Below, piece by piece: positions 532 to 18,078 of a DNA stretch of 36,617 nt (its first letter is position 1; each line of letters starts with the position of its first letter). The position numbers and the translations under genes were made by a program. Source of the DNA: an uncultured Gammaproteobacteria bacterium (GTDB lineage Bacteria; Pseudomonadota; Gammaproteobacteria; GCA-001735895); assembly GCA_937894085.1 (NCBI GenBank), contig CALCSG010000457.1, positions 1-36,617 on the forward strand, read 5' to 3'. Below the pieces are notes generated by a model. That model was not told where the DNA came from and made no database searches. It saw only the letters and a list, made by a program, of their open reading frames with translations.

Positions 532-579
532 CGGATAGCATTACCTATATATATGTTTATATATAGGTAATGCTATCCG
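532..579. promoter_or_regulatory. 22-bp-arm inverted repeat over the abiEi start (candidate AbiEi operator)
   Basis: Bases 532-553 and 558-579 are perfect reverse complements around a 4-base centre (TGTT, 554-557). The arms run from CGGATAGCATTACC at the outer ends to an alternating AT core. A TATACT hexamer at 521-526 could be a -10 box, which would place the repeat at the transcription start. AbiEi of Serratia is known to repress its own operon by binding inverted repeats at the promoter, so this is the natural operator candidate. The right arm contains the ATG at 570, so a transcript starting upstream would fold the start region into a hairpin. Confidence 0.75.
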
Positions 580-1199
580 TGATTAAAAGAAAATTTTCTG
601 AATCTTCTCTATTAAAAGCCAAACGTATTATTAGTCAGGGTGGAGGAGTAATCCGTACATCCGATGCTATTCGAGCAGGTATCCACCCTCGTACACTTTA
701 CGAGCTCAGGGATAAAGGAGTTCTGGAAGTTCTTTCACGTGGAGTTTACCGCTTAACCGATCAAGAAGAAATTGTAGACCCTGATCTTATCATTGTGGCA
801 AGCAGAATTCCTCGGTCAGTAATTTGCCTGATTTCGGCTCTGTCCTTCCATGAAATAACGACTCAGATTCCACATGCTATCGCTATAGCCCTTCCAAAAG
901 GAGCTGAAACTCCACGTTTGCTTTATCCACCACTTAGCGTACACCGGTTTTCAAAAGAAGCGTTGAAGGAGGGTGTTGAAGAACACCGGATAAACGGGGT
1001 AACGGTGAAAGTTTTCAACTCGGAGAAAACACTGGCAGACTGTTTTAAATTCCGTAATAAAATTGGACTGGATATAGTTCTGGAAGCACTTAAACTTTAC
1101 CGGTCAAAGGGGCAGTTTAATACTGAGAAGTTGTTGAAATATGCCAAAATCTGTCGCGTAGAAAAGGTCATGCGACCCTATCTGGAGGTTATGCTATGA
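570..1199 (+). CDS. abiEi: AbiEi-type antitoxin / transcriptional repressor
   Basis: This is a 209-residue protein with an N-terminal winged-helix region (about residues 15-65, including GVIRTSDAIRAGIHPRTLYELRDKGVLE and SRGVYRL) and a C-terminal domain containing FNSEKTLADCFKFRNKIG, a pattern typical of the AbiEi/DUF4095-like antitoxins. In type IV AbiE toxin-antitoxin systems, AbiEi counters the toxin without binding it and represses the operon. The stop overlaps the abiEii start (ATGA at 1196-1199), the usual arrangement. The start is uncertain: ATG 570 has only AGG two bases away, and GTG 579 in the same frame has AGG eleven bases upstream. Both lie in or at the edge of the large inverted repeat. 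Identification is strengthened by the adjacent toxin. Confidence 0.88.
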   Translation: MLSVIKRKFSESSLLKAKRIISQGGGVIRTSDAIRAGIHPRTLYELRDKGVLEVLSRGVYRLTDQEEIVDPDLIIVASRIPRSVICLISALSFHEITTQIPHAIAIALPKGAETPRLLYPPLSVHRFSKEALKEGVEEHRINGVTVKVFNSEKTLADCFKFRNKIGLDIVLEALKLYRSKGQFNTEKLLKYAKICRVEKVMRPYLEVML

Positions 1200-2098
1200 A
1201 AGGTCAAAAAAATATAGCAGCTTCTGTTCGGCAACGCTTACTAAATCTGGCTAAAGGCGAGCATCGACCATTCAATGAATTGCTTCAGTATTACGCAATG
1301 GAACGCTTTTTATATCGTTTATCTAACTCTGCATATTCAAAGAAGTTTATTCTTAAAGGTGCGTTGATGCTCAGAGTCTGGCAAGCGCCAGAGCATCGTC
1401 CCACCATGGATATAGATATGCTCGGAAAGGTCACCAATAACCAGCAAAGTATCATTCAAAAAATCCAGCAAATACTAATTGTTGAGGTGGATCCAGATGG
1501 TCTGGACTTTGATACAGAGTCAATACAGACTCAACGAATAACTGAAGAGGCTGACTATCAGGGAGTCAGGGTTCGGTTTAAAGGAAGTTTAGGTCAGGCA
1601 AAAATAAATATGCAATTAGATATTGGTTTTGGAGATATTGTTTACCCAAAAGCTGAAAGATCAGAGCTACCAACCTTGCTTGATAATCCTGCCCCAAGAT
1701 TACTCTGTTACAGTCGTGAAACTGCCATTGCTGAAAAATTTGAGGCCATGGTTAAGTTGGGGGTACTCAATAGTCGAATGAAAGACTTTTATGATATCTG
1801 GATGTTAGCCAGGCAATTCAACTTTGATGGTAGTGTGTTGGCTGAAGCTATTAATCTGACTTTCAAACAGCGTGATACTGTTTTAACAGAAGATGTCGTG
1901 GCTTTTCAAGAGGAATTTATTATCCAGAAGCAAGTTCAGTGGGGAGCCTTTTGCAAGCGATTAAAGCATGAGTATTTACCAATAGAATTTTTAGAAGTTG
2001 TATCACTTATTGAAAGATTCCTCAGCCCAATTGTTAAGTCTATCTGTACTGAAAAATCATTTTCCAGGCAATGGGTTGCTGCGGATAACTGGCATTAG
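1196..2098 (+). CDS. abiEii: AbiEii-type nucleotidyltransferase toxin
   Basis: The 300-residue protein belongs to the AbiEii/AbiGii toxin family (DUF1814, nucleotidyltransferase fold). Visible signatures are KGALMLRVW at about residues 54-62, the metal-binding RPTMDIDML at about 68-76 (Asp72, Asp74), and the C-terminal AIAEKFEAMVKLGVLNSRMKDFYDIW, where the family carries conserved Lys and Asp residues. Members of this family modify tRNA or other acceptors with nucleotides and halt growth, giving abortive infection against phage. The start overlaps the stop of abiEi by four bases, implying translational coupling. All catalytic motifs look intact, so the toxin is probably functional. The stop is followed six bases later by the primase-helicase start. 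Confidence 0.92.
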   Translation: MKGQKNIAASVRQRLLNLAKGEHRPFNELLQYYAMERFLYRLSNSAYSKKFILKGALMLRVWQAPEHRPTMDIDMLGKVTNNQQSIIQKIQQILIVEVDPDGLDFDTESIQTQRITEEADYQGVRVRFKGSLGQAKINMQLDIGFGDIVYPKAERSELPTLLDNPAPRLLCYSRETAIAEKFEAMVKLGVLNSRMKDFYDIWMLARQFNFDGSVLAEAINLTFKQRDTVLTEDVVAFQEEFIIQKQVQWGAFCKRLKHEYLPIEFLEVVSLIERFLSPIVKSICTEKSFSRQWVAADNWH

Positions 2099-2104
2099 AA
2101 TAGT

Positions 2105-4477
2105 ATGTCGGAGATAGATCCATTAAAACTCAATTTGCAGTTATTTAACACTGTCGAAGCCATTGATAAAAGGCTGGCTGAATTAGATCGTGATCGAGCG
2201 CTTTTAGTTAATAGAAAGCAGTTCATACTAAATCAAATTTCTGATTGTAATAGCAGCAATCCTGATAGACCTTTCATACTTTCAGTTAATCAAAAGGTGG
2301 AGATATTTAAAGGGTTGTTTAAAGGGCGATCAGATGTTTTTGCACACCGATGGGAAAACTCAAAAGGAAGAAGTGGATATTCATTTTCTTGTGAAAATGA
2401 GTGGAAGAAAGGGCTTTGTCATAAACCTAAAATAAAATGTAATCAGTGTTCTAATCGAAAGTATAATTCCCTTGATGATCAGGTTGTATATAACCACCTA
2501 AAGGGGAAACAGGTAGTGGGCTTGTATCCTCTACTCGTTGATAATACTTGCCGCCTACTAGCTGCAGATTTTGATAAGAATGACTGGATGGAGGCAGCTA
2601 AAGCAATGTCTCAGGTTTGTACACAATTTAAAGTCCCGCATGCTATTGAAATTTCACGCTCAGGAAATGGTGCTCATCTCTGGATATTTTTTTCTGAACT
2701 AGTCACGGCTAAAGATGCAAGGCAGTTGGGCTTTGGGCTGCTTGATAAAGCTATGGAAATTCACCCCAATCTATCATTTGAGTCTTATGATCGATTATTT
2801 CCTAATCAGGATCTAATGCCTGAAGGTGGTTTCGGAAACCTGATTGCTCTACCGTTGCAGTTTCATGCCAGGCAGCAGGGGAACAGTTTATTTGTTGATA
2901 ATAATTTTTCTCCTTATAAAGATCAGTGGCTGTTTTTATCACAGATAACAAGTATTTCACGCCAGGTACTGAATAATTTACTGGATCAATTGACACCTCA
3001 AACCCAGCGTTTAATAGATGATCGACCACCCTGGGAGCAAGGATTAAAACTCAGAGACGATAAAATAGAAGGTTGTCCTAAACTGATTACAGTTACGTTG
3101 GCCAATCATATTTATATCAAATTTGAGAGTTTACCGTCACTGTTGATTGCAAAATTAAAAAGATTAGCCAGCTTTTCTAATCCAGTGTTTTTTAAAACTC
3201 AGGCACTGAGGTTCTCTACTCATGGGATTCCAAGGTATATCACTTGTGCCCACATTGAGCAGGGCTATTTATCATTACCCCGAGGTTGCTTTGATGAAGT
3301 GGTTGAATTGCTTGAAGAGCAGAATGTTAAACCTGTTATTGATGATAGACGACAGTCGGGTCAAACACTAACTTCATTAAAATTCCTAGGAAAGTTAAAA
3401 AATGAACAATTGAAAGCTGTTAGGGTTATTGTAAAACATAATACCGGGGTATTACATGCCCCTACTGCGTTCGGGAAAACAGTTGCTGCAATAGGCGTTA
3501 TTTATAGGCGTAAAGTTAATACGTTGATTTTGACTCATAGTCGGCAGCTTCTGGAGCAGTGGCAGGAGCGATTGCAATCTTTTTTAACAGGAGTCGAAAT
3601 AGGGGTTATTGGTGGTGGAAAGAGGAAACCAACGAGTCAGATAGATATTGCAACCTATCAAAGTCTCATCAATAAAAAAGACAACTCAGTTGATTTATTA
3701 ATTCAGGATTATGGACAAGTAATTATAGATGAATGTCATCACATCTCTGCCCCACGATTTGAAATGGCACTTAATGAAGTACGTGCAAAGTATGTACTGG
3801 GTTTAACGGCTACTCCAGACAGACAAGATGGACACCAGAAAATAATTTTTATGCTTGCTGGTCCCGTGCGATGTAAAGTGAAACAGGATCACGCTGAAAA
3901 ATTTGTACAGAAGGTGATGGTTACTCATCTAAACCATCAGCCACCAGAAGCTTTTGTCAGTGAAGATGCAAGACCTCACATATCAGATGTATATCGATGG
4001 TTAACAGAAAATATAAGTCGTGCTCAGAAAATTGTAGATGATGTGGTCGAGAGAGTTACTGAAGGTAAAACTCCTTTAGTGTTGACAGAGCGTCGGGAGC
4101 ATGCTGATCTTATCCATCAATTACTGGTGGATAAAAAAATAAAGACAGTTGTATTACGAGGAGCAATGCGAGCTAATGAGCGCAAGTCTGCAAATAATTA
4201 TCTAGCCGAAACTCAGGTAGTTGTTGCGACAGGTAAATATGTTGGAGAAGGATTTGATATGCCAAGACTGGATACTCTTTTTCTCGCTTTGCCCATAGCC
4301 TGGAAAGGTTCTCTGGCTCAGTATGCGGGTAGAATTCATCGTGAGCTAGAGGGTAAAAGCCTGGTCACTATCTATGATTATGTTGATACATCACTTCCAA
4401 TGCTTAAAAGAATGTTTCTGAAGCGGGAGAAAGGCTATAAAGCCATGGGGTATCAAATAAGTTTCGTTAATAAATAA
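2105..4477 (+). CDS. TOTE-type archaeo-eukaryotic primase fused to SF2 helicase
   Basis: The protein has 790 residues. After a coiled-coil-like N-terminus (about 12-47) comes a primase domain of the TOTE conflict-system type (about 65-290): four cysteines (C96, C105, C112, C115) likely bind zinc, ADFD (154-157) gives the DxD metal motif, SGNGAHLW (186-193) holds the catalytic His, and SYDRLFPNQD and GGFGNLIALPLQ follow. From about 430 a superfamily 2 helicase starts: APTAFGKT Walker A (452-459), DECH box (542-545), GLTATP motif III-like segment (566-571), and a C-terminal lobe with GEGFDMPRLD and QYAGRIHRE. Nucleic acid remodelling and primer synthesis in a conflict or replication-linked role is inferred from the family. 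The start lies six bases after the AbiEii stop with no clear ribosome binding site, so translation is probably coupled. No nuclease domain is evident. Confidence 0.88.
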   Translation: MSEIDPLKLNLQLFNTVEAIDKRLAELDRDRALLVNRKQFILNQISDCNSSNPDRPFILSVNQKVEIFKGLFKGRSDVFAHRWENSKGRSGYSFSCENEWKKGLCHKPKIKCNQCSNRKYNSLDDQVVYNHLKGKQVVGLYPLLVDNTCRLLAADFDKNDWMEAAKAMSQVCTQFKVPHAIEISRSGNGAHLWIFFSELVTAKDARQLGFGLLDKAMEIHPNLSFESYDRLFPNQDLMPEGGFGNLIALPLQFHARQQGNSLFVDNNFSPYKDQWLFLSQITSISRQVLNNLLDQLTPQTQRLIDDRPPWEQGLKLRDDKIEGCPKLITVTLANHIYIKFESLPSLLIAKLKRLASFSNPVFFKTQALRFSTHGIPRYITCAHIEQGYLSLPRGCFDEVVELLEEQNVKPVIDDRRQSGQTLTSLKFLGKLKNEQLKAVRVIVKHNTGVLHAPTAFGKTVAAIGVIYRRKVNTLILTHSRQLLEQWQERLQSFLTGVEIGVIGGGKRKPTSQIDIATYQSLINKKDNSVDLLIQDYGQVIIDECHHISAPRFEMALNEVRAKYVLGLTATPDRQDGHQKIIFMLAGPVRCKVKQDHAEKFVQKVMVTHLNHQPPEAFVSEDARPHISDVYRWLTENISRAQKIVDDVVERVTEGKTPLVLTERREHADLIHQLLVDKKIKTVVLRGAMRANERKSANNYLAETQVVVATGKYVGEGFDMPRLDTLFLALPIAWKGSLAQYAGRIHRELEGKSLVTIYDYVDTSLPMLKRMFLKREKGYKAMGYQISFVNK

Positions 4478-4811: not shown

Positions 4812-6389
4812 TTAAACAATACCATCCATATCCGTTGTCCTGATTTCTCTGGATGTCTGACTCTTACCATTGTCTGGCTTATAACAACTTTGTTCACGTG
4901 GGCAAATTGCACCTCTGGAACAGATTAATCTGGCATCACTTTCTATGCCCCTTTCTATCCAGGCGATATTTAATATTCTGGCTACGCGGGTGAGATCTGC
5001 TTTTATTTTTTTAGGAATTGCGGTAAATCCTCCCTGTTCAACACAGGTATTCTTTAATTCAGCAGCAAGAGACAGCGAATCCAGTCCCTGCGCTTCTATC
5101 GCCGGGTTTAAATCTATGCCGGCACATAAAACATGATTAGTGCCGGTTATGTCTTTAACCCTGGTGGATTCGCAACAGTAAATTCTGGGTTCATCACCGA
5201 CGTTAAGTATTGATATCTGTGCGGAAGTACCTGGTGCCGGGTTATTCAATTTACGGAATACCGACCAGTGCTGGCAGGGATCCTCGACGGCTCGCATATT
5301 GCCCCAGGGTAAAGGGATGCCATTGCCACGATACACGGCTTTAAATTTTCCGGCTGCATAGGCATCAAAATAATGCCAGTGAGGGTAGGGGGAAACGGCT
5401 GTCATGCGCCGCATGGCGACGGATGTGCTGGTATCAGCATATTTGCTGACAGAAACTTCATTTCCATGGCGATCCAGTAACTGACGAAAAGGTACTTTTG
5501 GGCAGAGCAGGGCGCCGGCAAAGAAGCTGCACTCAAAGTCCCGCCAGGCATACAGAATTTCCTGCGGATTTACGTCGGAAGAACAGTTTCCATCCGGGTA
5601 ACCGGCAGAGTTGTTTTCCGGCTGGTTGCTACCAGCAATCAGGACGCTTTTTAACCCATCCTTATCGTGTAATACACAATGTCCAATATGCACGGATAAG
5701 TCGTATTTAAGCCGTTTAGGATATGATTTGAGTATTTCATTGACATAGATCGTAGCGGGAGGGGTGAAGAATGAGCTGACAAGACCATCCGGGTTACAGC
5801 TGTTTGCCTGAGCTATTTCGGCAGGTATTTTATCAAACCATTTGATCTCCAGGCCATGTTGACGGGTGATTGCCATGATGTCTTCAAGGTCCAGAGGTAA
5901 GCGTTTTAACCCGACTTCTTCAGCCGCTCTTTCAAGATCCGGAAAGTGGTTCTGATGGTGCTCCTGGTGTGCTCGAATCAACAGTTGCGCAAATTGTCTG
6001 CCGGTAGTTCCGGTTTGGGTGAGCATTTCCGGGATGGCAATTTGCAATATCTCGCTGGAAAACAGGAAACCGGGTTCGAGTGGCATGCCAAAAACTCCAC
6101 CGCGACTTCCTTTAGCCGGTGCTATTGCAGTTTCTTCGGGAGCATCATCCAGAAACCAGCCCGGCTGTTTTTGAAATACGCTGGCAATAACCTCAATAAT
6201 TTCACGGCTGGGTACGCGCTTACCGCGTTCAATCATCGACAGGTAGGAAACCGAAGGCGCCGCCTCTGCATTAATTCGCATACAGCGTGCAGAGAGATCT
6301 TCCATCGTCAGGTGGTTGCTTTTGCGTAGGTTTCGGATTTTAGTTCCGAGAAAATAGGATTTTCTGAGCAGGTTTCCACTGGGAGTCAT
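4812..6389 (-). CDS. RamB/ScfR-like XRE-family regulator of acetate/short-chain acyl metabolism
   Basis: The 525-residue protein begins with an XRE helix-turn-helix (about 14-75, with PSVSYLSMIERGKRVPS as the recognition region). It continues into an IrrE-like domain (about 150-260) and a long C-terminal DUF2083-type region ending in a Cys-rich segment, CSRGAICPREQSC (about 487-500). The position equivalent to the HExxH zinc-protease motif reads VHIGH, lacking the catalytic Glu, so the domain probably senses instead of cleaving. Homologues such as RamB control isocitrate lyase and malate synthase genes, and both enzymes are encoded divergently next door. No clear Shine-Dalgarno sequence precedes ATG 6389; a leaderless message is possible. 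Three phased TGTAAAATT repeats abut the start and suggest autoregulation. Confidence 0.87.
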   Translation of the reverse strand: MTPSGNLLRKSYFLGTKIRNLRKSNHLTMEDLSARCMRINAEAAPSVSYLSMIERGKRVPSREIIEVIASVFQKQPGWFLDDAPEETAIAPAKGSRGGVFGMPLEPGFLFSSEILQIAIPEMLTQTGTTGRQFAQLLIRAHQEHHQNHFPDLERAAEEVGLKRLPLDLEDIMAITRQHGLEIKWFDKIPAEIAQANSCNPDGLVSSFFTPPATIYVNEILKSYPKRLKYDLSVHIGHCVLHDKDGLKSVLIAGSNQPENNSAGYPDGNCSSDVNPQEILYAWRDFECSFFAGALLCPKVPFRQLLDRHGNEVSVSKYADTSTSVAMRRMTAVSPYPHWHYFDAYAAGKFKAVYRGNGIPLPWGNMRAVEDPCQHWSVFRKLNNPAPGTSAQISILNVGDEPRIYCCESTRVKDITGTNHVLCAGIDLNPAIEAQGLDSLSLAAELKNTCVEQGGFTAIPKKIKADLTRVARILNIAWIERGIESDARLICSRGAICPREQSCYKPDNGKSQTSREIRTTDMDGIV

Positions 6390-6583: not shown

Positions 6584-8758
6584 ATGAATTTGCCAATTCA
6601 GAAGAGCTATCAGATTAACCAGCAGTTTTACAACTTTATTAATGATGAAGTGTTACCGCAGCTTTCTGTTAATCAAAACAGGTTCTGGAATGACCTTGAA
6701 ATGCTGATTGAAGAGTTGACGCCGGTTAATCAGCATTTGTTGCAAACCCGTAACCGTTTGCAATCAGAGTTAAATGACTGGCATCAGCAACATCGGGCGG
6801 AAGATTTTGATGCACAGCTATACCAGAACTTTTTAACAGAAATTGGCTACCTGGTAGCAGAGGGAGAGGATTTTGAAATACAGACGAGTAAAGTTGATGA
6901 GGAAATCACCAGCATTGCCGGGCCGCAGTTGGTGGTGCCGCTTAAAAATGCACGTTTTGCGTTAAATGCAGCAAATGCACGCTGGGGCAGTTTGTATGAT
7001 GCATTATATGGCAGCGATGTTATTCCTCAGACTGATGGTTTAAAAGTAAGTAAACAACATAACAAGGCACGTGAATCACGAGTCATTCACTACGCCAAGG
7101 ATTTTCTGGATGAAGTATTTCCATTGAACTCCGGGTCTCATCATGACGTCACCAGTTACGTGGTTTATTTTAACAATTTATTGGCATTTTTTGCGGATGG
7201 CTGTTCGACCGGGATATGTGACCCTAAACAGTTTGTCGCATTATGCGGTCATAAAAGTGAACCCAGCTGCATTGTTTTAAAAAATAATGGGCTTCATGTT
7301 GAAGTTCAAATAGATCGTAGTCACTTTATTGGGGCAAATGATCTGGCCGGGGTAAGTGATATTAAGGTGGAAGCGGCAGTAAGCACGATTATGGATTTTG
7401 AAGACTCCATTGCTGCAGTTGATGCTGAAGATAAAGTTGAGGTCTATCGTAACTGGTTAGGTTTGGTAGAGGGAAATCTTGAAGCCGGTTTTCAGAAAAA
7501 TGGCGACAATATAAAGCGAAAATTAGCCAAAGACCGAAAGTACACTTCAAAAGAATCCGGAGAGTACCGTTTACACGGCCGATCATTAATGCTGGTGCGC
7601 AATGTTGGTCACCTGATGGACACAGAATTAATGCAGGATACGCAGGGAAATAACGTGCCAGAAGGGATTGTCGATGCAGTGGTGACGGCGATGATCGGAT
7701 CACTGGATCTGAACCCTGACAAAGACTGTCATAATAGCCGGACTGGCAGTATTTATATAGTTAAACCGAAAATGCACGGCCCTGAAGAAGTCGCTTTTAG
7801 CTGTCTGTTATTCAGCCGGGTAGAAGACATGCTGGGGCTTGAGCGAAATACCTTAAAGCTCGGCATTATGGATGAAGAACGACGAACTACGGTCAACCTG
7901 AAAGAATGTATTCGTCAGGCTAAAGATCGCATTGTATTTATTAATACTGGCTTTCTTGATCGGACCGGAGATGAAATTCATACCAGTATGCAGGCTGGCC
8001 CCTTTCTTCCAAAAGCGCAAATCAAGCAACAGCCGTGGATCCAGGCTTATGAAGATAACAATGTAGATATAGGGCTGAAATGCGGATTTCCGGGTAAGGC
8101 TCAAATTGGTAAAGGGATGTGGGCGATACCGGACGAAATGCAGGCCATGATGTCACAAAAAATTGAACATCCGATGGCGGGTGCTAGTACAGCCTGGGTT
8201 CCATCACCAACGGCAGCCACTTTACATGCACTGCATTACCATAAAGTCGATGTGTTCAGCCGCCAGCAGGAATTACAGGAAAGAGAGAATGCCAGTCTAC
8301 AGGACATTCTGACCATTCCTCTGTTAACAGACCGAGCTAGTTTGAGCGCGGATGAGATAAGTAAGGAACTGGAAAATAACATTCAGGGCATTCTGGGTTA
8401 CGTGGTGCGCTGGGTCGAACAGGGTGTCGGCTGCTCAAAAGTGCCAGACATCAATAACATCGGTTTGATGGAGGATCGGGCAACGTTACGTATTTCCTGT
8501 CAGCATATCAGCAACTGGTTACTGCATAAGCTGTGCGATGAAGCACAGGTAGTGGACATAATGCAGCAGATGGCCGCTAAAGTTGATAGCCAGAATCAGA
8601 ATACACCCGGGTATATTCGAATGACCCCTGATACTGAAAACAGTCTCGCGTTTAACGCCGCCCGTGAACTTATTGTGAAAGGGTGTGAACAACCAAACGG
8701 TTATACCGAGCCGCTGCTGCATAAATATCGCTTATTAGCGAAGAGTCGTAAATGCTGA
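6584..8758 (+). CDS. glcB: Malate synthase G
   Basis: The 724-residue length equals the usual malate synthase G length. It condenses glyoxylate with acetyl-CoA to give malate in the cytoplasm, the second step of the glyoxylate shunt. Diagnostic segments are present: GIMDEERRTTVNLKECI (catalytic Arg), FINTGFLDRTGDEIHTSMQAGPF (Mg-binding Asp region), GVGCSKVPDI (the reactive Cys), and MEDRATLRISCQHI, which carries the catalytic Asp near residue 630. A GAGG ribosome binding site lies about nine bases before the ATG. It stands upstream of isocitrate lyase on the same strand, 66 bases away, so the two are probably co-transcribed under the divergent RamB-like regulator. Confidence 0.96.
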   Translation: MNLPIQKSYQINQQFYNFINDEVLPQLSVNQNRFWNDLEMLIEELTPVNQHLLQTRNRLQSELNDWHQQHRAEDFDAQLYQNFLTEIGYLVAEGEDFEIQTSKVDEEITSIAGPQLVVPLKNARFALNAANARWGSLYDALYGSDVIPQTDGLKVSKQHNKARESRVIHYAKDFLDEVFPLNSGSHHDVTSYVVYFNNLLAFFADGCSTGICDPKQFVALCGHKSEPSCIVLKNNGLHVEVQIDRSHFIGANDLAGVSDIKVEAAVSTIMDFEDSIAAVDAEDKVEVYRNWLGLVEGNLEAGFQKNGDNIKRKLAKDRKYTSKESGEYRLHGRSLMLVRNVGHLMDTELMQDTQGNNVPEGIVDAVVTAMIGSLDLNPDKDCHNSRTGSIYIVKPKMHGPEEVAFSCLLFSRVEDMLGLERNTLKLGIMDEERRTTVNLKECIRQAKDRIVFINTGFLDRTGDEIHTSMQAGPFLPKAQIKQQPWIQAYEDNNVDIGLKCGFPGKAQIGKGMWAIPDEMQAMMSQKIEHPMAGASTAWVPSPTAATLHALHYHKVDVFSRQQELQERENASLQDILTIPLLTDRASLSADEISKELENNIQGILGYVVRWVEQGVGCSKVPDINNIGLMEDRATLRISCQHISNWLLHKLCDEAQVVDIMQQMAAKVDSQNQNTPGYIRMTPDTENSLAFNAARELIVKGCEQPNGYTEPLLHKYRLLAKSRKC

Positions 8759-8830
8759 ATTGAATAAAAATACCGCCTTCTCTGTAGAAGCCAATTATTA
8801 AAAAGTCGATTATTAAAAACGAGGATGAAT

Positions 8831-10432
8831 ATGTCTAACTATAAAACTGAAATGAGTCAAACGAGTAACTTTATCAATCAACAGGGAGAATCATGGAGAG
8901 CGATAAATCCTGAATATGTGACGCGCATGCGCTTACAGAATCGTTTTCAAACAGGTCTGGATGTGGCCAGATACACTGCAGGTATTATGCGCGAAGATAT
9001 GGCTGCCTATGATGCTGACTCATCTCAGTACACCCAGTCACTGGGCTGCTGGCACGGTTTTATCGGTCAGCAAAAGATGATCTCTGTGAAGAAGCATTTC
9101 GGCACCACAAAAAAGAGCTACCTGTATCTTTCTGGCTGGATGGTGGCTGCCCTGCGTTCTGAATTCGGGCCCTTACCCGATCAGTCTATGCATGAAAAAA
9201 CAACAGTTGCCGGCTTGATCGAAGAGCTTTACACCTTCCTGCGTCAGGCTGACTCTCGTGTACTGGGTGGCCTGTTCCGAGAGCTGGATGCTGCGCGTAA
9301 AGCCGGTGATAACCTTAAGGAACAGGATATCCAGAATCAAATCGATAACTTCGAAACTCATGTTGTGCCGATAATCGCTGATATTGACGCCGGCTTTGGT
9401 AACGCTGAAGCGACCTATCTGATGGCAAAGCAAATGATCGAAGCAGGTGCCTGCTGCATTCAGATCGAAAACCAGGTTTCTGATGAAAAGCAATGTGGTC
9501 ACCAGGATGGAAAAGTAACTGTGCCGCACGAAGATTTTCTGGCAAAAATAAATGCTGTTCGTTATGCCTTTATGGAGCTGGGTGTAGATGATGGTGTAAT
9601 TGTGGCGCGTACCGATTCACTGGGTGCCGGACTGACCAAGCAAATCGCTGTCACCAACGAGCCGGGCGATATAGGCGATCAGTACAACAGTTTCCTGGAT
9701 GTTGAAGAAGTAACGCCTGAGACTATGAAAAATGGTGATGTTGTGATTAATCGTGATGGAAAACTGGTACGCCCGAAGCGTCTTGCCAGCAACCTGTTCC
9801 AGTTCCGTTCGGGTACTGGCGAAGACCGTTGTGTGCTGGACTGCATTACTTCACTGCAAAACGGTGCGGATATGATCTGGATCGAAACTGAAAAGCCGCA
9901 CATCGCTCAGATCGGTGGCATGGTTAATCGTGTCCGCGAAGTAGTACCGAATGCCAAACTGGTTTATAACAATTCTCCTTCGTTTAACTGGACACTAAAT
10001 TTCCGTCAGCAAATTTTTGATGCATGGAGTGAAGAGGGTAAAGATGTTTCTGCTTATGACCGTGACAGGCTGATGAGTGTTGATTACGATGATACAGAAC
10101 TGTCAATCGTTGCTGATGAAAAGATTCGTACCTTCCAGGCTGATTCATCCCGTGATGCGGGTATCTTCCATCACCTAATTACACTGCCAACTTACCACAC
10201 TGCTGCACTGTCTACTGACAACCTGGCCAAAGATTATTTCGGCGATCAGGGTATGCTGGGTTATGTACTGGGTGTTCAGCGTAAGGAAATTCGTGAGGGT
10301 ATCGCCTGTGTTAAGCACCAGAATATGTCAGGTTCTGATATCGGTGATGATCACAAGGAATACTTTGCCGGTGATGCAGCGCTGAAAGCGGCTGGTGAAG
10401 ACAACACCATGAATCAGTTTGCCAATATTTAA
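8831..10432 (+). CDS. aceA: Isocitrate lyase (long form)
   Basis: It cleaves isocitrate to succinate and glyoxylate, feeding the malate synthase encoded just upstream. The protein is about 533 residues, matching the long subfamily known from Pseudomonas (about 530) and not the 434-residue E. coli enzyme. The signature KQCGH (KKCGH in the short form) carries the catalytic Cys and sits in the segment starting DEKQCGHQDGK; DIDAGFGNAEATY is the conserved metal-binding region. I chose the ATG at 8831 over the one at 8825 because the GAGGA ribosome binding site at 8821-8825 overlaps the earlier codon and is correctly spaced for the later one. A hairpin terminator follows. Confidence 0.95.
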   Translation: MSNYKTEMSQTSNFINQQGESWRAINPEYVTRMRLQNRFQTGLDVARYTAGIMREDMAAYDADSSQYTQSLGCWHGFIGQQKMISVKKHFGTTKKSYLYLSGWMVAALRSEFGPLPDQSMHEKTTVAGLIEELYTFLRQADSRVLGGLFRELDAARKAGDNLKEQDIQNQIDNFETHVVPIIADIDAGFGNAEATYLMAKQMIEAGACCIQIENQVSDEKQCGHQDGKVTVPHEDFLAKINAVRYAFMELGVDDGVIVARTDSLGAGLTKQIAVTNEPGDIGDQYNSFLDVEEVTPETMKNGDVVINRDGKLVRPKRLASNLFQFRSGTGEDRCVLDCITSLQNGADMIWIETEKPHIAQIGGMVNRVREVVPNAKLVYNNSPSFNWTLNFRQQIFDAWSEEGKDVSAYDRDRLMSVDYDDTELSIVADEKIRTFQADSSRDAGIFHHLITLPTYHTAALSTDNLAKDYFGDQGMLGYVLGVQRKEIREGIACVKHQNMSGSDIGDDHKEYFAGDAALKAAGEDNTMNQFANI

Positions 10433-10523: not shown

Positions 10524-10549
10524 ACGATTGGCACCAATCGTAATTTTTT
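10524..10549 (+). terminator. Rho-independent terminator of glcB-aceA
   Basis: A 7-bp stem (ACGATTG / CAATCGT) with loop GCAC is followed by AA and six T residues. It ends at the stop codon of the convergent kinase gene (10548-10550), so the two transcription units meet end to end. Confidence 0.7.
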
Positions 10550-12920
10550 ACATACTCTTAATCGCCAATATGGCCTGGTTCCGTAAAGTTTTAAGCAGAC
10601 TAAGCTGGTTATCTGAAATGGCAATACTTTTTGCCTGTGTGCTGTCAATGTAAATAATGGCAATGGGACTGTGTTTAATGACGATAGGAAAGAGCACAAA
10701 AGATTTTGAGCTGATTTTCCGGTGATACCAGGCCGGAATTTTATCTTTTATTTTGGCATCCTGAGTATCATCAATTCTAATATCTACATTATTTTTAAAC
10801 GCAATATGAAAAACATCCGGCTGATAAGCCAGTGGAATGAGAAAGTTTTGAGTGAGAGACTCTATGTCTTCCCCGTAACCGAATTTTCCCTTGATACAGT
10901 TACTGGGTTTGTCGCGCAGTCCAAGTAAAACGCGAGATCCCGGCAGCGCCCGATAAATAGTTTCCAGGATCATTTGCATCACCTGGTTAATGTTTACATC
11001 ATCTCCCGTCAACGTGTTGGTAATGTCCTGGATGCCATCGGTGAGTGCTTTCTCGGAGTTATATATATTTTCCTGAGTTGTTTCCTGTTCCAGTACCTGT
11101 ACGCTTTCGTCGTCACCAAATGCATTCGCGGCCTGACTTTTTTGTGCGTCAGTTTCTGTTTCATTATCTGCAGTGAGCTGTTGATAGAACTTGCTTTTAT
11201 TGAGATTAAAATTTATCAGTTTGGCGAAGCTGGTGAGCTCTTTTTGTGATGTTTCAATCAGTTTGTTGATTTTCTTCTTATCAATATTTAACGCATTATC
11301 ATATTGCTGGGTCACTTTTTCGATTGCTGCGGCATGCTTTTCTTTAGGTTGTTTTAAGACCGTACTCAAGTTGTTACTGAAGCTTGCTATGGTGCGTAAT
11401 TTATCATCAGTTTTATCAGATTTTTTAGCCAGAAATTTTTCATCAACCGGTTTCATGCTGTTAATGATTTGTTCTGGAAACCCCCATTCTTTGGCAACAG
11501 CCATACCTAGCGTGTGATAGCTGGTGCCTAATACTTTCAGTGCCGCCGTGTTTTCTTCCTGATTGTTTTGTTCTACCTGCTTATCTATTGCCTGACTCTC
11601 TTCATGCAGGTAGAAACGCACCAGTAATTTACCAAGCTGTTGCAATAATGCGCATAAAAAGGCTTCTTCATGTTGTTTAACATTATTCGAGTTAGCCAGG
11701 TCATTCGCCATGATGGCACTAAATAATGAGGTGACCGCATCTTCCATCAACTGGTTTGCCTGCATTTTATTTTGCAGATGCTCAAATAACATGAGGGATA
11801 CCGCCAGACTTTTCACAGGGTTGATGCCTAGCATCACCACCGCGCGTGAAATGGTGGAAATTTTTCCGCCGCCACGACTGTAATAAGCGGAGTTAACAAT
11901 ACGTAACACTTTATTGGTCAGTGAGATATCTTTCAGAATAGCATTAGAGACAGTGGATAAACTCTCTGTATCGCTGTTAGACGCCTTGTTTAAAATACTG
12001 ATGGTACGCGAAAAGGCAGGGAAGTCTTTTTTATGATTCATACGTCGCAATAGAAATTGCACGGTCGAGTCGGAACTGTCGCTATGATTCAGGGCATCGT
12101 TGAGTGCCAGGTTTTGTTCCAGCGCTTTTAACATTTCACCAGCGGTCTGGTAGCGATTTTCAGGATTTTTTTCCAGCGCTTTCATGATAAACGCATCCAG
12201 ATTTTCATCAATATTATTATTTTTACTGGATGGAGGAGGGATTTCCGTATTGGCAATGGCATTTAATAACTGATACACATCATCACCCTGCACAGCCCTT
12301 TGACCGGTCAGTAATTCGTAAAATATAAGGCCCAGTGAAAACACGTCGGATACAGTCTGGTGTTTATGGGTTTCAATATATTCAGGTGCCATATATTGTG
12401 GCGTGCCTGCCAGCTGCTCATTATCATCATTTTGATTTTCAGCCAGTAACGCCAGCCCGAAATCGGCAACTTTTGCCTGCCCCTGCCTGGTGATCATGAT
12501 GTTGGCGGGTTTCAGGTCACAATGAATAATGCCTTCGTTATGTGCAGCGGCTACACCGGATAAAACATCGCGCATGATGTTGAATGTTTGTTGTAGCGGT
12601 ATCTGGTTTTTTAATTGTGCATATAGATTTTCACCTTCGACATATTCCAGTACCAGGTAAGGTTCCAGAGGGTTATTGCCGACATCGTAAATAGTTACAA
12701 TATTCGTGTGTTGCAGGCGGCTGACAGTGCGGGCTTCCTGTAATAAATTTTGTATGTTGTCCTGTTGCCGCGAGTGGTCGCGTAATATGACCGATTTGAT
12801 GGCAACCTGTCGATCCAGGCTGGGATCTGTCGCCAGGTAAACAATACCCTGGGCACCTTTGCCGAGGATATCTTTAATAATGAAACGGTCTATTTTTTGG
12901 GGGAAATCGAAATCAGCCAC
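10548..12920 (-). CDS. Ser/Thr protein kinase with HDOD and GAF-like domains (paralogue 1)
   Basis: The 790-residue protein has a Hanks-type kinase domain (about 10-275): glycine loop GKGAQG (20-25), VAIK Lys42, catalytic HCDLKPAN (133-140), DFG (153-155) and GTPQYMAPE. The residue before the catalytic Asp is Cys, not Arg, so it is a non-RD kinase and may not need activation-loop phosphorylation. An HDOD domain follows (about 295-500, ISRAVVMLGINPVKSLAVS), then a linker and a GAF-like C-terminal domain (about 640-790). HDOD proteins act in bacterial signalling without the HD phosphohydrolase residues. No transmembrane segment is evident, so it should be cytoplasmic. It follows a close paralogue by 69 bases and is the last gene of a probable three-gene operon. 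Its target and signal are unknown. Confidence 0.88.
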   Translation of the reverse strand: MADFDFPQKIDRFIIKDILGKGAQGIVYLATDPSLDRQVAIKSVILRDHSRQQDNIQNLLQEARTVSRLQHTNIVTIYDVGNNPLEPYLVLEYVEGENLYAQLKNQIPLQQTFNIMRDVLSGVAAAHNEGIIHCDLKPANIMITRQGQAKVADFGLALLAENQNDDNEQLAGTPQYMAPEYIETHKHQTVSDVFSLGLIFYELLTGQRAVQGDDVYQLLNAIANTEIPPPSSKNNNIDENLDAFIMKALEKNPENRYQTAGEMLKALEQNLALNDALNHSDSSDSTVQFLLRRMNHKKDFPAFSRTISILNKASNSDTESLSTVSNAILKDISLTNKVLRIVNSAYYSRGGGKISTISRAVVMLGINPVKSLAVSLMLFEHLQNKMQANQLMEDAVTSLFSAIMANDLANSNNVKQHEEAFLCALLQQLGKLLVRFYLHEESQAIDKQVEQNNQEENTAALKVLGTSYHTLGMAVAKEWGFPEQIINSMKPVDEKFLAKKSDKTDDKLRTIASFSNNLSTVLKQPKEKHAAAIEKVTQQYDNALNIDKKKINKLIETSQKELTSFAKLINFNLNKSKFYQQLTADNETETDAQKSQAANAFGDDESVQVLEQETTQENIYNSEKALTDGIQDITNTLTGDDVNINQVMQMILETIYRALPGSRVLLGLRDKPSNCIKGKFGYGEDIESLTQNFLIPLAYQPDVFHIAFKNNVDIRIDDTQDAKIKDKIPAWYHRKISSKSFVLFPIVIKHSPIAIIYIDSTQAKSIAISDNQLSLLKTLRNQAILAIKSM

Positions 12921-12989
12921 GAGTATCTTTTTGTTGTTTTTTTTGAGTATAGTCTATACAGCCAGCAGCGTTCTGTATCCCTTAAAATA

Positions 12990-15368
12990 TTAAGAGAGAC
13001 TTTTTATCGCCAGTATGGCCTGGTTACGCAGTGTTTTCAGCAGGCTAAGTTGTTTGTCGGATATCGAGATACCTGAGGTCTGTATACTGTCGATATAAAT
13101 AACGGCTATGGGGCTGTGTTTAATCATAATCGGAAAAAGAATGAAAAACTTTGAGCCAATTTTGCGGTGAAACCATGCTGGAATTTTATCTTTGATCTTT
13201 GTATCCTGTGTATCATCAATTTTTATATCCAGATTTTTTTTAAAGGCAATATGAAATACGTCATTTTCATAACTAAGCGGTATCTGAAAATGTTGAATTA
13301 ATTCATCGATATTTTCACCATAACCAAACTTTCCCTTAATACTGTTAGTGGCCTTGTCGCGCAAACCGAGTAATACACGTGAACCTGACAGCCCCCGGTA
13401 TATGGTTTCCAGAATCATTTCAAAAACCTGGTTTAAGTTATAATCGCTGGTTAATGTGTTGGTGATGTCGGCGATACCATCAGATAGTTTTTCTTCCGAA
13501 CTTTTCTGATCCAATTCGGTGCACTCTTCATGAAAAACAAGTGCTGTGTTATCTTCATCAAAATCATCTTCGGGCTGTTGATCCTGCTCCACAGGTTCTT
13601 TGTTAGCTTCGCTGAGCTGGCGGTAAAATTGACTCTTAGATAGATTAAAATTAATTTGTTCGGCAAATTTATTCAGTTCGATAAGTGTTTTTTCAATCAT
13701 CGCTGTTACATATTTCTTATCCAGCTTCAATGCTTTGCGATAATGTGTAATCAGTTTATCGATTAACAGTTCCTGAGTTCCCACAGGTTTTTTTAAAATT
13801 TGGCTTAAGTCATTACTAAAATGAGCTATGACTCTTAATTTCTCCTGTTGTGTTCCAGGGTTGCTGAGAATACGTTTATCCAGCGGTAGCATACTGTTAA
13901 TTATCTGTTCCGGAAATCCCCATTCTTCAGCAACAGCCATACCTAAAAGCAGGAAAGAAGTGCCCAGCACTTTCATCGATGCCGTATTTTCTTTTAAGTT
14001 ATTCTGTTCAATCTGATTGTCTATCAGCAAGCTTTCTTCATGTAGATAATATCGAACCAGCATTTTTCCAAGCTGCTGTAGCATGGCGCATAAAAAAGCT
14101 TCTTCGTGATCGGTGACCTGATTTGACTTCGCCAGATCATTCGCCATTAAAGCGCTAAATAAAGAAGTGACAGCGTCATCCATCATTTTTCCTGCCTGGT
14201 CTTTGTTCTGCAGGTTTTCAAATAACATCATGGAGACAGCCATGCTTTTTACCGTGTCCATGCCGAGCATGACAACGGCACGTGATATGGTACTTATTTT
14301 TTCACCCCGATTGTAATAGGCCGAGTTAACCACGCGTAAAATCTTATTGGTTAGTGAAATGTCTTTAAGAATAGCATTGGAAACCGTGGTTAAGCTGGTG
14401 GATTCACTGCTGGTGGCTTTGTTCAGTATACTGATGGTCTGCGAAAATGCGGGGAAATCCTTTTTATGATTCATGCGCCGTAATAAAAATTGAACAGTCG
14501 CATCGGTATTCTCAGATTGATTCGCTACATGATTAAGTGCCAGAGTATTCTCAAACGCCTTGAGCATCTCTCCAGCCGTTTCGTAACGATTGTGCGGATC
14601 TTTTTCCAGCGCTTTCATGATAAGGGCATCGAGTCCTTCATCGATACTATTGTTATGGCTTGATGGTGGTTGAATCGGCACATTGGCAATTGCATTTAAC
14701 AATTGATATACATCATCCCCGTTGACCGCTTTTTGCCCGGCTAGTAGTTCGTAAAAAATTAACCCGAGAGAAAATACATCCGATACAGTCTGGTTTTTAC
14801 GTGTTTCAATGTATTCAGGAGCCATGTATTGCGGCGTTCCAAGCAACTGATCGTTGTTCTGCTGTTGTTTATTTGCCAGTAAAGCCAGCCCGAAATCAGC
14901 CACCTTGGCCTGTCCCTGTTTGGTGATCATTATGTTAGCTGGCTTCAAATCGCAGTGAATAATACCTTCGCTATGCGCAGCGGCGACACCGGAAAGCACA
15001 TCACGCATTATTTTATAAGCCTGCTGTAGCGGGATCTGGTTTTTTAAAAGTTTATCCAGTGTATCGCCTTCAACATATTCCAGCACCAGGTAAGGGTTAA
15101 GCTGGTCGTTGCCAACATCGAATATACTGACAATATTGGTATGTTGTAATTTACTGACGGTACGTGCTTCCTGCAATAAATTATCAACGTTTTCCTGTTG
15201 CTGGTAATTATCTCGCAGGAATACAGATTTGATGGCAACCTGACGTTCCAGGCTGGGATCGGTGGCCAGATAAACAACACCTTGCGCGCCTTTGCCAAGG
15301 ATGTCATTAATAATAAAGCGATTTATTTTAGATGGAAAGTCGGGTTCGAGCACAACATTATATTTCAA
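12990..15368 (-). CDS. Ser/Thr protein kinase with HDOD and GAF-like domains (paralogue 2)
   Basis: The 792-residue protein is collinear with the downstream neighbour across its full length, from the glycine loop GKGAQG (25-30), VAIK Lys47, HCDLKPAN (138-145) and DFG (158-160) through the HDOD domain (about 300-505) to the GAF-like C-terminus. The linker between HDOD and GAF is the most divergent part. All kinase catalytic residues are kept in both copies, so neither looks like a decayed duplicate. The start lies 26 bases after the stop of a thioredoxin-like gene on the same strand, which suggests an operon. Tandem duplication with retained function is the simplest history; the two may phosphorylate each other or different targets. 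Confidence 0.88.
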   Translation of the reverse strand: MKYNVVLEPDFPSKINRFIINDILGKGAQGVVYLATDPSLERQVAIKSVFLRDNYQQQENVDNLLQEARTVSKLQHTNIVSIFDVGNDQLNPYLVLEYVEGDTLDKLLKNQIPLQQAYKIMRDVLSGVAAAHSEGIIHCDLKPANIMITKQGQAKVADFGLALLANKQQQNNDQLLGTPQYMAPEYIETRKNQTVSDVFSLGLIFYELLAGQKAVNGDDVYQLLNAIANVPIQPPSSHNNSIDEGLDALIMKALEKDPHNRYETAGEMLKAFENTLALNHVANQSENTDATVQFLLRRMNHKKDFPAFSQTISILNKATSSESTSLTTVSNAILKDISLTNKILRVVNSAYYNRGEKISTISRAVVMLGMDTVKSMAVSMMLFENLQNKDQAGKMMDDAVTSLFSALMANDLAKSNQVTDHEEAFLCAMLQQLGKMLVRYYLHEESLLIDNQIEQNNLKENTASMKVLGTSFLLLGMAVAEEWGFPEQIINSMLPLDKRILSNPGTQQEKLRVIAHFSNDLSQILKKPVGTQELLIDKLITHYRKALKLDKKYVTAMIEKTLIELNKFAEQINFNLSKSQFYRQLSEANKEPVEQDQQPEDDFDEDNTALVFHEECTELDQKSSEEKLSDGIADITNTLTSDYNLNQVFEMILETIYRGLSGSRVLLGLRDKATNSIKGKFGYGENIDELIQHFQIPLSYENDVFHIAFKKNLDIKIDDTQDTKIKDKIPAWFHRKIGSKFFILFPIMIKHSPIAVIYIDSIQTSGISISDKQLSLLKTLRNQAILAIKSLS

Positions 15369-15394
15369 GTTTTTTTGAAGTATAGTTGATGGAT

Positions 15395-15742
15395 TTAAAT
15401 GTGCTGTTGAATAAAGTGCTGAATAAATTGCGCCGGACGTGCGCTGCTAAATCTATCCAGTTCTTTTCCATCTTTAAACAGGATGATGGTCGGAAAACCT
15501 CGCACCAGATATTGACCTGCCAGTTTCATGTTATGCCCTTCATCGACTTCCAGTTTGGCCAGCACAACCTGACCTTCGAAAGACTCAACCACTCGACTTA
15601 ACACCGGGGCAATGGCAATACAGGGGCTGCACCAGTCAGCCCAGAAATCGACCAGTACAGGGGTTTTAAAAGAAGCCTGTAGAACCTGATCATCGAAGTC
15701 TTCTAAATCGATGTTAAAAATATATGGATTGATTTTGGTCAT
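15395..15742 (-). CDS. Thioredoxin-domain protein (single domain)
   Basis: A 115-residue thioredoxin fold carries the active site WCSPC (residues 37-41) after VLVDFWAD and the cis-proline segment GFPTI. The sequence LAKLEVDEG and the overall spacing resemble the N-terminal domain of CnoX/YbbN, but the TPR domain of that co-chaperone is absent. It likely acts as a cytoplasmic disulfide reductase or holdase-type partner; there is no signal peptide. It is the first gene ahead of the two kinase genes, 26 bases apart, so redox state and kinase signalling could be connected; that link is inference only. The start at 15742 lacks an obvious strong ribosome binding site. Confidence 0.88.
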   Translation of the reverse strand: MTKINPYIFNIDLEDFDDQVLQASFKTPVLVDFWADWCSPCIAIAPVLSRVVESFEGQVVLAKLEVDEGHNMKLAGQYLVRGFPTIILFKDGKELDRFSSARPAQFIQHFIQQHI

Positions 15743-15868: not shown

Positions 15869-16696
15869 ATGAAGCTTATCAACAAAGTTGGCGGTATTGT
15901 TATTATTGTACTGCTGGCGCTTTCAGGTAGTGCAAAAGCCGATGTGCTGCTACTGGTACATGGTTATCAGGGTAGTGTTTATTCCTGGGAGCATTCCGGT
16001 GTCTCTGCGGTATTACAACAGTTCGGCTGGAAACGTGCAGGTGTTTTGCTAGGAACATATCAGGGTTTGGTCCCGATTCCGATGCAGTGGCAGGATGCCG
16101 ATAACAAGGTCATCAATCTACAGTTAAATTCAGAAGCCCCGCTCAGTGGCCAGGCCAATGTGTTTACAACCGCAGTACGATGGGTTAATGACCGCTATCC
16201 ATCAGAAAAAATCATTATTGCAGGTCATTCTCTGGGCGGGGTCGTTGCGCGCTTATCGCTGGTGCGAAGTGGTGCTCCAAATGTAAAAGCGTTAATCACT
16301 ATTGCCAGTCCACATCTTGGAACCGTGCTGGCTTACCGGGGACTGGATGAAATTGATGATCCTTTTCCCATTAATAAAATAAAAGAGTTCTTAGCCGGTA
16401 ATGACTATGACACGTTGGTGCGTTCCAGAGGTTTGTTACATGACATTGTTCCTGCAGTGCCAGGTAAATTATTATACTGGCTGAATAATCAACAACATCC
16501 GCCGGTTAAATATTACTCTATCGTCAGGTCATCGGTGAATGGTGTGCTTGGTGATCCCATTGTTCCGGGTTTTAGTCAGGATATGGCCAATGTGCAGGCT
16601 ATTGGCAAAAATTCAACGCGTATAATAGAGGGATTTACACATGATTTAAGTGTGCTGGATGGTTATGCGCTGGTGAATATTCTTGAACAACAGTAG
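15869..16696 (+). CDS. Secreted alpha/beta hydrolase (lipase-like)
   Basis: The 275-residue protein has a signal peptide (residues 1-24, ending SAKA before DVLLLVHGYQG) and an alpha/beta-hydrolase fold. HG at 31-32 forms the oxyanion region, and the nucleophile elbow GHSLGG places the serine at 121. The IASPHLG segment recalls lipases and PGAP1-like esterases. It is predicted to be periplasmic or extracellular, cleaving esters; the substrate cannot be told. AGGAG eight bases before the ATG supports this start. It is transcribed alone, divergent from the thioredoxin-kinase operon. Confidence 0.82.
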   Translation: MKLINKVGGIVIIVLLALSGSAKADVLLLVHGYQGSVYSWEHSGVSAVLQQFGWKRAGVLLGTYQGLVPIPMQWQDADNKVINLQLNSEAPLSGQANVFTTAVRWVNDRYPSEKIIIAGHSLGGVVARLSLVRSGAPNVKALITIASPHLGTVLAYRGLDEIDDPFPINKIKEFLAGNDYDTLVRSRGLLHDIVPAVPGKLLYWLNNQQHPPVKYYSIVRSSVNGVLGDPIVPGFSQDMANVQAIGKNSTRIIEGFTHDLSVLDGYALVNILEQQ

Positions 16697-16759: not shown

Positions 16760-17068
16760 CTACGGTTGCTGGATTAACACCCAGGGTTTGACCACGCTGG
16801 TCCATAAACTGGCATCGTCATTAAACCATTCACGTGCCTGATCGTTACTGACCTGTTGAATCAATTGCGAGTTTAACCAGATTTCTATCTGTTTGGCATT
16901 ATCCTGTTCGAATTGAAAGGCAACCTCGATCAGATCCAGTTGCTGATCAACGAATAAGGTGTAACCACTGGCAAAATGGCGTTGTAGTTCTTTCCAGGGC
17001 ATGCGCGCAGTTTCGCTATTGAGCTTGCCGCGAATGAGTTCTGCACTGGTGATTTCTGGTTTGTTCAT
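16760..17068 (-). CDS. DUF2288-family protein
   Basis: The 102-residue protein has the pattern of the uncharacterised DUF2288 family: KLNSETARMPWKELQRHFASG near the N-terminus, LDLIEVAFQFEQDN in the middle, and a C-terminal segment with W residues. No catalytic motif, signal peptide or membrane segment is visible, so it is a small cytoplasmic protein of unknown role. It lies 89 bases downstream of oxyR on the same strand, so co-transcription with oxyR is possible. Confidence 0.75.
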   Translation of the reverse strand: MNKPEITSAELIRGKLNSETARMPWKELQRHFASGYTLFVDQQLDLIEVAFQFEQDNAKQIEIWLNSQLIQQVSNDQAREWFNDDASLWTSVVKPWVLIQQP

Positions 17069-17157: not shown

Positions 17158-18078
17158 TTAGTCAATAGTTTCAATTCCCGGTAACCCGCATTGCTGGATG
17201 TTATCAATTATCAATTGTATAGCTTCTTTGCGCGGGTAATGTTTACGCCAGGCGAGGGCAACCGTTCTACTGGGCTGAGGGGGGCTGAAGTACTTGATTT
17301 TTATTAGATCAGAGTTGTGCTGACTGTTTAGCATGCTGGTGCAGGGTAAAACGGTGATACCGGTGCCTGCTGCCACCATGTGTCGAATAGTTTCCAGAGA
17401 ACTACCTTCAAGCGTACGGGTTAATTCGTTGTTTTCAGTAATACATTTGGGACAGGCCAGCAATACCTGGTCTCGAAAGCAATGACCTGCTCCTAATAGC
17501 ATCAGGTCCTGACCAACAAGTTCATTAACCTTGATCTGCTTTTTTTCTACCCATTTATGGTGAGAGTAAATGGCTACTACAAATGGTTCTTTATATAAAG
17601 GGAAAGTCTCAATTCCCGGTTCATCAAAGGGATAAGAAATAATAATGGCATCAAGTTCTCCCTGTTTTAGCGATTGAGACAGGTTGGCAGTAAAATTTTC
17701 TTCGATAATTAGCGTCATCTTCGGCGCATTTTTGCGCAGCCCGGGAATCAGATCGGGTAACAGATATGGTCCGATGGTGTAAATAGCCCCCAGTTTAAAA
17801 GTGCCTGATAACGGGTCTTTGCCCTGCTGAGAGATTTCATTAATGACATGAGTTTCCTGTAACACCTTCTGCGCCTGTTGTACGATTTTCTGGCCGATGT
17901 CGGTGATACGTATTTCATTTTTCGAGCTGCGTTCGAACAGTTTTACATTGAGCTCTTCTTCAAGCTTTTTTATGGCGATACTTAACGTAGGCTGACTTAC
18001 AAAGCAGGCCTGGGCTGCATGCCCAAAGTGTTTTTTCTGTGCTACGGCAACGATGTAACGAAGTTCAGTAAGTGTCAT
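17158..18078 (-). CDS. oxyR: OxyR, hydrogen-peroxide-sensing LysR regulator
   Basis: The 306-residue LysR-type regulator has an N-terminal helix-turn-helix (about 1-60, with HFGHAAQACFVSQPTLSIAIKKLEEELN). In its effector domain, GHCFRDQVLLAC places two cysteines nine residues apart, the same spacing as Cys199-Cys208 in E. coli OxyR, where peroxide forms a disulfide that activates catalase and peroxidase genes. LEGSSLETIRHMVAAGTGITVLP is also typical of OxyR. No catalase or ahpC gene is adjacent. It is divergent from a TerB-family gene with 123 bases between them. Confidence 0.92.
   Translation of the reverse strand: MTLTELRYIVAVAQKKHFGHAAQACFVSQPTLSIAIKKLEEELNVKLFERSSKNEIRITDIGQKIVQQAQKVLQETHVINEISQQGKDPLSGTFKLGAIYTIGPYLLPDLIPGLRKNAPKMTLIIEENFTANLSQSLKQGELDAIIISYPFDEPGIETFPLYKEPFVVAIYSHHKWVEKKQIKVNELVGQDLMLLGAGHCFRDQVLLACPKCITENNELTRTLEGSSLETIRHMVAAGTGITVLPCTSMLNSQHNSDLIKIKYFSPPQPSRTVALAWRKHYPRKEAIQLIIDNIQQCGLPGIETID

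Follow-up and report, generated by a model that had tools for sequence, protein, structure and literature searches.

Introduction

Among described signalling systems, three types come closest to the kinases analysed here, namely Hanks-type Ser/Thr kinases, HDOD proteins and GAF sensors. Kinases of the PknB and StkP type possess all the catalytic motifs, and PknB forms back-to-back dimers through residues that we take to be R10, L33 and D76. The equivalent leucine and aspartate are required for dimers of other bacterial kinases, according to a review (PMC12599244). HDOD proteins influence motility, as three reports indicate (PMC6543031, PMC11004494, PMC11813219), and SadB is described as having a YbaK-like domain besides HDOD and as tested for c-di-GMP binding (PMC6543031). 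GAF sensor domains occur in PtsP and in a phytochrome-type histidine kinase.

No paper found in our search of the open literature joins HDOD with a protein kinase or with Hanks, and none of the papers found there that mention HDOD is, judged by its title, about a kinase fusion. Among the matches listed for threonine kinase, OxyR and thioredoxin, none concerns a Pkinase-HDOD-GAF protein by title, and none of the open papers searched was found to deal with DUF2288.

Here we describe a gammaproteobacterial locus in which two Pkinase-HDOD-GAF genes follow a thioredoxin gene. Like PknB and StkP, both proteins keep every catalytic motif and the back-to-back dimer residues, but they lack PASTA repeats, carry HCD instead of HRD and end in an HDOD-GAF tail. 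The HDOD fold of one of them is common to SadB, GsmR, Cj0248 and MmoQ, for which the available texts describe no kinase fusion. The linkage of these genes to oxyR and DUF2288 offers a first testable pathway for the Pkinase-HDOD-GAF family, and a natural experiment on the role of HDOD is provided by the two tandem pairs, whose upstream copies keep the kinase but have changed in HDOD or GAF.

Results and discussion

Architecture of the tandem kinases

The window, 36,617 nucleotides long, is the whole of contig C457 from a genome of 6.0 Mb in 567 contigs. Two genes with open reading frames lie in tandem on its minus strand, separated by 69 bases: the upstream, diverged copy A (12990..15368, 792 aa, TTG start) and the downstream, slow and orthologue-like copy B (10548..12920, 790 aa, GTG start). 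Their products share 71% identity across 786 aligned residues and have one domain order. On the same strand, a gene for a thioredoxin of 115 aa with a WCSPC active site and an ATG start (15395..15742) precedes copy A by a spacer of 26 bases (15369..15394) that contains CTATACT. This distance, given in the initial annotation, applies if translation begins at TTG; GTG at 15353, in the same frame, is a better counterpart of the copy B start and would widen the gap to 41 bases.

Pfam, together with motifs, places the kinase domain at residues 15-261 of copy B (12138..12878, minus), and Pfam places that of copy A at residues 21-263 (14580..15308, minus), with Pkinase E values of 3.5e-57 and 1.8e-57. 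Both have the VAIK lysine, the alpha-C glutamate, HCDLKPAN, DFG and APE, and are thus predicted to be Hanks-type Ser/Thr protein kinases; the catalytic residues are also kept in both copies of the second tandem pair, which is found in the genome G004 (G004up and G004dn). Because cysteine replaces the arginine of HRD in A and B, both are classed as non-RD, as had been proposed. An alignment of 40 relatives has cysteine at this position in 21 rows, arginine in 11, glycine in 7 and leucine in 1, and within the family of the window cysteine occurs in 19 of 23. PknB and StkP are the best solved relatives of the domain, and the PknB_PASTA_kin model, whose cut-off is 450 bits, scores 267-269, its match stopping at the kinase.

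With equivalences to PknB assigned by eye, 39 of the 40 rows retain the residue matching R10, 39 that matching L33, and 39 a D or an E at the place of D76, and the dimer-surface residues are kept in A, B and both G004 copies. Dimers, including mixed ones, are therefore plausible, although a surface of this kind would be needed equally by any homodimer. The sole cysteine invariant in the family kinases is C427 (23/23), which lies in HDOD; C139 occurs in 19 of 23. We noticed neither a redox cofactor nor a CXXC site in the kinases.

The HDOD domain (PF08668) spans residues 301-490 of copy B (11451..12020, minus) and 306-493 of copy A (13890..14453, minus), with E values of 2e-39 and 9.4e-41 and scores of 135.5 and 139.9 bits, far above the cut-off of 22.9. 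A model of copy B residues 280-575 matches 3hc1 (Z 16.1 over 235 residues), 3m1t (14.7), MmoQ (14.2) and SadB (12.8). HD enzymes carry HDxG at their metal-binding motif. Here QQLGK occupies that place and the intact HD pair is absent, which sets the domain apart from HD-GYP and HD phosphohydrolases. Since QQ replaces the HD pair, a role in binding a ligand or partner is likelier than hydrolysis.

The third domain covers residues 614-790 of copy B (10551..11081, minus) and, as judged from a marginal Pfam match and identity to copy B, residues 644-788 of copy A (13005..13439, minus). Its scores against GAF (PF01590) are 22.1 and 22.2 bits in the two copies, just under the cut-off of 22.4. In the model of copy B, the stretch 614-790 aligns with GAF structures at Z 14-16, resembling in fold those of PtsP and the phytochrome-type histidine kinase at only 10-21% identity, and the domain is very likely a genuine GAF. 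The full-length AlphaFold model of copy B, built from 7 sequences, has a mean pLDDT of 49.6, with only the GAF domain and parts of HDOD usable; the HDOD piece modelled alone reaches 62.9, and most of its residues 1-104 fall below 50.

Distribution and copy number

Among 41 genomes of the family of the window, its own included, 23 contain a match at E <= 1e-100, and the same 23 are recovered with copy B as query. The window's genome and G004 have the tandem pair, and the remaining 21 have a single copy, truncated by contig ends in two of them (G006 and G049). No third copy at this level exists in the window's genome, where the next match is 34% identical and covers the kinase part alone. In a wider sample of 369 genomes drawn evenly from the class, the family's own included, 25 match at E <= 1e-90, several of these over kinase-HDOD only; by genus, 23 of the 271 in the gammaproteobacterial sample include kinase-HDOD(-GAF) proteins.

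The thioredoxin-kinase-kinase order recurs in G004, so the arrangement is not peculiar to one strain, the outcome by which the initial annotation would have been refuted. The pair is nevertheless the exception, and the earlier proposal that retention of both copies means that both are needed is weakened: with 21 of the 23 kinase-bearing genomes single-copy, a pair is unnecessary for function in the relatives.

Single-copy proteins of identical architecture from other Gammaproteobacteria are 31-38% identical to A and B, but no oxyR or thioredoxin neighbours were seen beside them and their kinases mostly carry HRD or HGD. Two relatives have broken kinase motifs and are likely, on their sequences, to be pseudokinase versions: one in G262 (L090, 6893-9280) with VAIR, HGAL and GLG, the other in G381 (L084, 2665-5340) with VAIR, RQS and HLD. 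In G159 (L083, 5104-9104), a kinase-less HDOD-GAF paralogue begins 2 bases downstream of a Pkinase-HDOD-GAF gene, to which it is 31% identical; this is the sole such tandem among 18 loci outside the family, several of which are short or cut.

Genomic neighbourhood

The family shares a conserved gene order of pilT/pilU, yggS-proC-yggT (the pil, ygg and pro labels being our presumed names), DUF4426, TerB, oxyR, DUF2288 and the kinase. In the window, an OxyR-type LysR regulator (17158..18078, minus) and a DUF2288 protein (16760..17068, minus), both identified with Pfam, lie upstream of the thioredoxin, and an alpha/beta hydrolase gene on the opposite strand (15869..16696, plus; Pfam) stands between DUF2288 and thioredoxin. 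For the regulator, PRK11151 is the best of 53 matching NCBIfam families, at 258 bits against a cut-off of 329, and the translated gene apparently contains the two peroxide-sensing cysteines. The stretch upstream of the kinase could be assessed in 20 genomes, with G001, G014 and G040 excluded from the count, and oxyR together with DUF2288 is present in 18 of them (13/13 in g3; 5/7 in g1/g2). The two others, G005 and G010, keep DUF2288 and have no oxyR beside the kinase. This setting is a better find than the duplication itself.

It also bears on a defensive role. A and B are each matched by two PADLOC models, PD-T4-6 and MAD6, which score strongly along the kinase, and a group of defence-like genes (570-4477) is found at a distance of 6 kb. 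The best-scoring stretches of the matches, however, are on the kinase and take in no more than part of HDOD, as would presumably happen with any Hanks kinase, and the gene stays with oxyR-DUF2288 in 18 of the 20 testable family genomes. We regard a defence kinase as very improbable.

A thioredoxin gene directly precedes the kinase in all 8 kinase-bearing g1/g2 genomes and in none of the 13 testable g3 genomes. The window's protein matches PF00085 with an E value of 4e-25, and WCSPC is found in 7 of the 8 orthologues, with WCGPC in G010. It is an extra copy, as its genome holds 13 other matches, the best two being 44% and 47% identical. At the 18 loci outside the family, no neighbour resembles thioredoxin, DUF2288 or oxyR, so the redox link does not extend to more distant relatives of the protein. 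The redox connection suggested in the initial annotation is strengthened by the oxyR-DUF2288 and thioredoxin neighbours within the family but stays at the level of context, from which coupling to the kinase may be supposed.

The neighbourhood varies elsewhere. In G006 (L044, 4362-9543), oxyR is separated from DUF2288 by what appears to be an insertion of two long genes, encoding 892 and 836 aa. At L036 (3476-10985), the kinase is followed by glycosyltransferase, phosphorylase-like, spore-photoproduct-lyase-like and short-chain dehydrogenase genes and a LysR regulator; the downstream layout at L034 and L037 resembles this one, and in the window that position is occupied instead by apparent isocitrate lyase and malate synthase genes.

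Evolutionary history of the pair

The nearest sequences to copy B are the single-copy genes of G001 and G005, at 84% and 81% identity, and copy A is 70-71% identical to copy B and to both of these. By a tree and the AU test, a sister relationship of A and B is rejected (p = 0.00087), and with it a recent duplication in the window's genome. Since A is not a recent twin of B, the two have outlived at least one species split; and as B lies nearest to G001 and G005, the A/B split predates the separation of the window's genome from these two. Sequence comparison thus presents copy B as the ordinary orthologue of the single-copy family kinases, and G001 and G005 have probably lost their second copy.

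Both copies are accordingly old as well as intact. They differ at 0.54 of third codon positions and at 0.17 of first and second positions, with a dN of 0.20 and a dS near saturation; for most pairs the NG86 method gave a dS that was saturated or undefined, and it served solely to indicate constraint. The trees omit G006 (250 aa) and G032 (partial), the partial G049 was never in the protein set, and a second tree omits G014, G045 and G038. Long branches make the placement of G004up and G010 uncertain.

The data favour neither one duplication shared with G004 nor separate events: the AU test accepts both A with G004up (p 0.425) and G004up with G004dn (0.351), and site patterns for the three groupings of the four copies number 12, 11 and 12, with no preference. 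Acquisition of copy A from a near relative beside B, or separate duplications in the two tandem genomes, would suit these even counts and also the position of A as a non-sister of B. Yet place and order are identical in both genomes, and in each the diverged, fast copy adjoins thioredoxin. In addition, CTATACT is common to the A-B spacer, the thioredoxin-A spacer and the spacers that separate thioredoxin from kinase in G001, G005 and G004, so that the A-B spacer repeats the leader as a local tandem duplication would, although the motif is absent from the spacer between the two G004 copies. On balance, acquisition or separate duplication appears quite unlikely.

Domain-specific divergence

The two copies are not equivalent: the upstream copy, unlike the downstream one, has fast-changing HDOD or GAF domains. 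The kinase of copy A is conserved like those of single-copy relatives, and its HDOD domain has changed much faster. Against positions invariant in seven slower g1/g2 rows, copy A is changed at 2 of 138 in the kinase, 16 of 125 in HDOD and 5 of 77 in GAF (Fisher p 3e-4 for HDOD versus kinase), and G004up at 6/138, 19/125 and 17/77, respectively. When each of the seven rows was tested against the other six, they had 34/1000 changes in the kinase and 27/902 in HDOD when pooled, with individual HDOD/kinase ratios from 0 to 1.7; compared with this pool, the excess in HDOD has a p of 0.0009 for A and 0.009 for G004up.

Branch rates agree with these counts. With 18 rows on a fixed tree that leaves A and G004up unresolved, the HDOD/kinase ratio is 2.27 on the copy A branch (5-95% of 60 bootstraps: 1.55-4.07), 0.52 for copy B, and 0 to 1.22 among the other single or slow rows listed. 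In G004up it is 1.39 (0.92-2.07) and the GAF/kinase ratio is 2.63 (1.92-3.79); the GAF shift is the firmer one there, because the HDOD/kinase interval overlaps G003. Gene conversion as the cause of the conserved copy A kinase is ruled out, given that fourfold sites differ alike in every domain (0.64, 0.63 and 0.64); every stretch identical between A and B is shorter than 24 bases.

The main rival explanation, which accounts for the same numbers, is that constraint has been relaxed on the input part of a redundant copy. It holds that copy A, a tandem duplicate, is on its way to loss, with its HDOD dispensable because B supplies that domain and its kinase decaying later. Losses at positions fixed in relatives, in the HDOD of copy A and the HDOD and GAF of G004up, are what it predicts, and G001 and G005, closer to B than A is, are single-copy, which makes loss likely there. 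It fits less well with two copies that remain free of stops over 790 residues despite near-saturated synonymous sites, or with the few changes of copy A in kinase and GAF. We consider it possible but doubtful.

Proposed function

The explanation that we tentatively favour, as one somewhat short of probable, is a soluble non-RD Hanks kinase controlled by HDOD and GAF and linked to oxyR-DUF2288, whose upstream copy has kept its output and changed its input or partner domain. Kinase activity would be set by the C-terminal HDOD and GAF module as it binds a ligand or partner, HDOD likely acting as a binding rather than a cutting domain. The copies may act through N-lobe dimers, homo- or heteromeric, and would phosphorylate the same targets, with copy A responding to another signal or partner than copy B. 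If the input has diverged in this manner, A and B may listen to different signals. The neighbouring oxyR and thioredoxin genes suggest a signal tied to oxidative stress or thiol state. Against this proposal stand the presence of the pair in just 2 of the 23 genomes with the gene, the absence of oxyR beside the kinase in G005 and G010, the lack of similar neighbours at the 18 loci outside the family, the redox cofactor and CXXC site that were looked for in vain among the kinases, and the faster change of HDOD, which could also be relaxed constraint before loss, G001 and G005 having one copy each.

A more specific version, which we think unlikely, has A and B form a mixed dimer via the N-lobe, in which A with its altered HDOD would feed a thiol or peroxide signal, by way of the neighbouring thioredoxin and OxyR, into Ser/Thr phosphorylation. 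If true, it would mean an OxyR-linked Ser/Thr kinase module in Gammaproteobacteria.

Other features of the window

Rfam and tRNA scans of the window gave no matches, and no plasmid matches were found at 1e-80. Promoter and terminator scans came out near chance (21 found versus 17.4 expected, and 9 versus 6.9), so operon structure is read from spacing alone. On the plus strand, AbiEi (570-1199) and AbiEii (1196-2098) genes overlap by 4 bases and are followed after 6 bases by a TOTE primase-helicase fusion (2105-4477); the toxin-antitoxin type genes and the fusion possibly form a combined defence unit. On the minus strand, a regulator with HTH and DUF3612 (4812-6389) is divergent from the apparent malate synthase and isocitrate lyase genes (6584-10432), which it perhaps controls.
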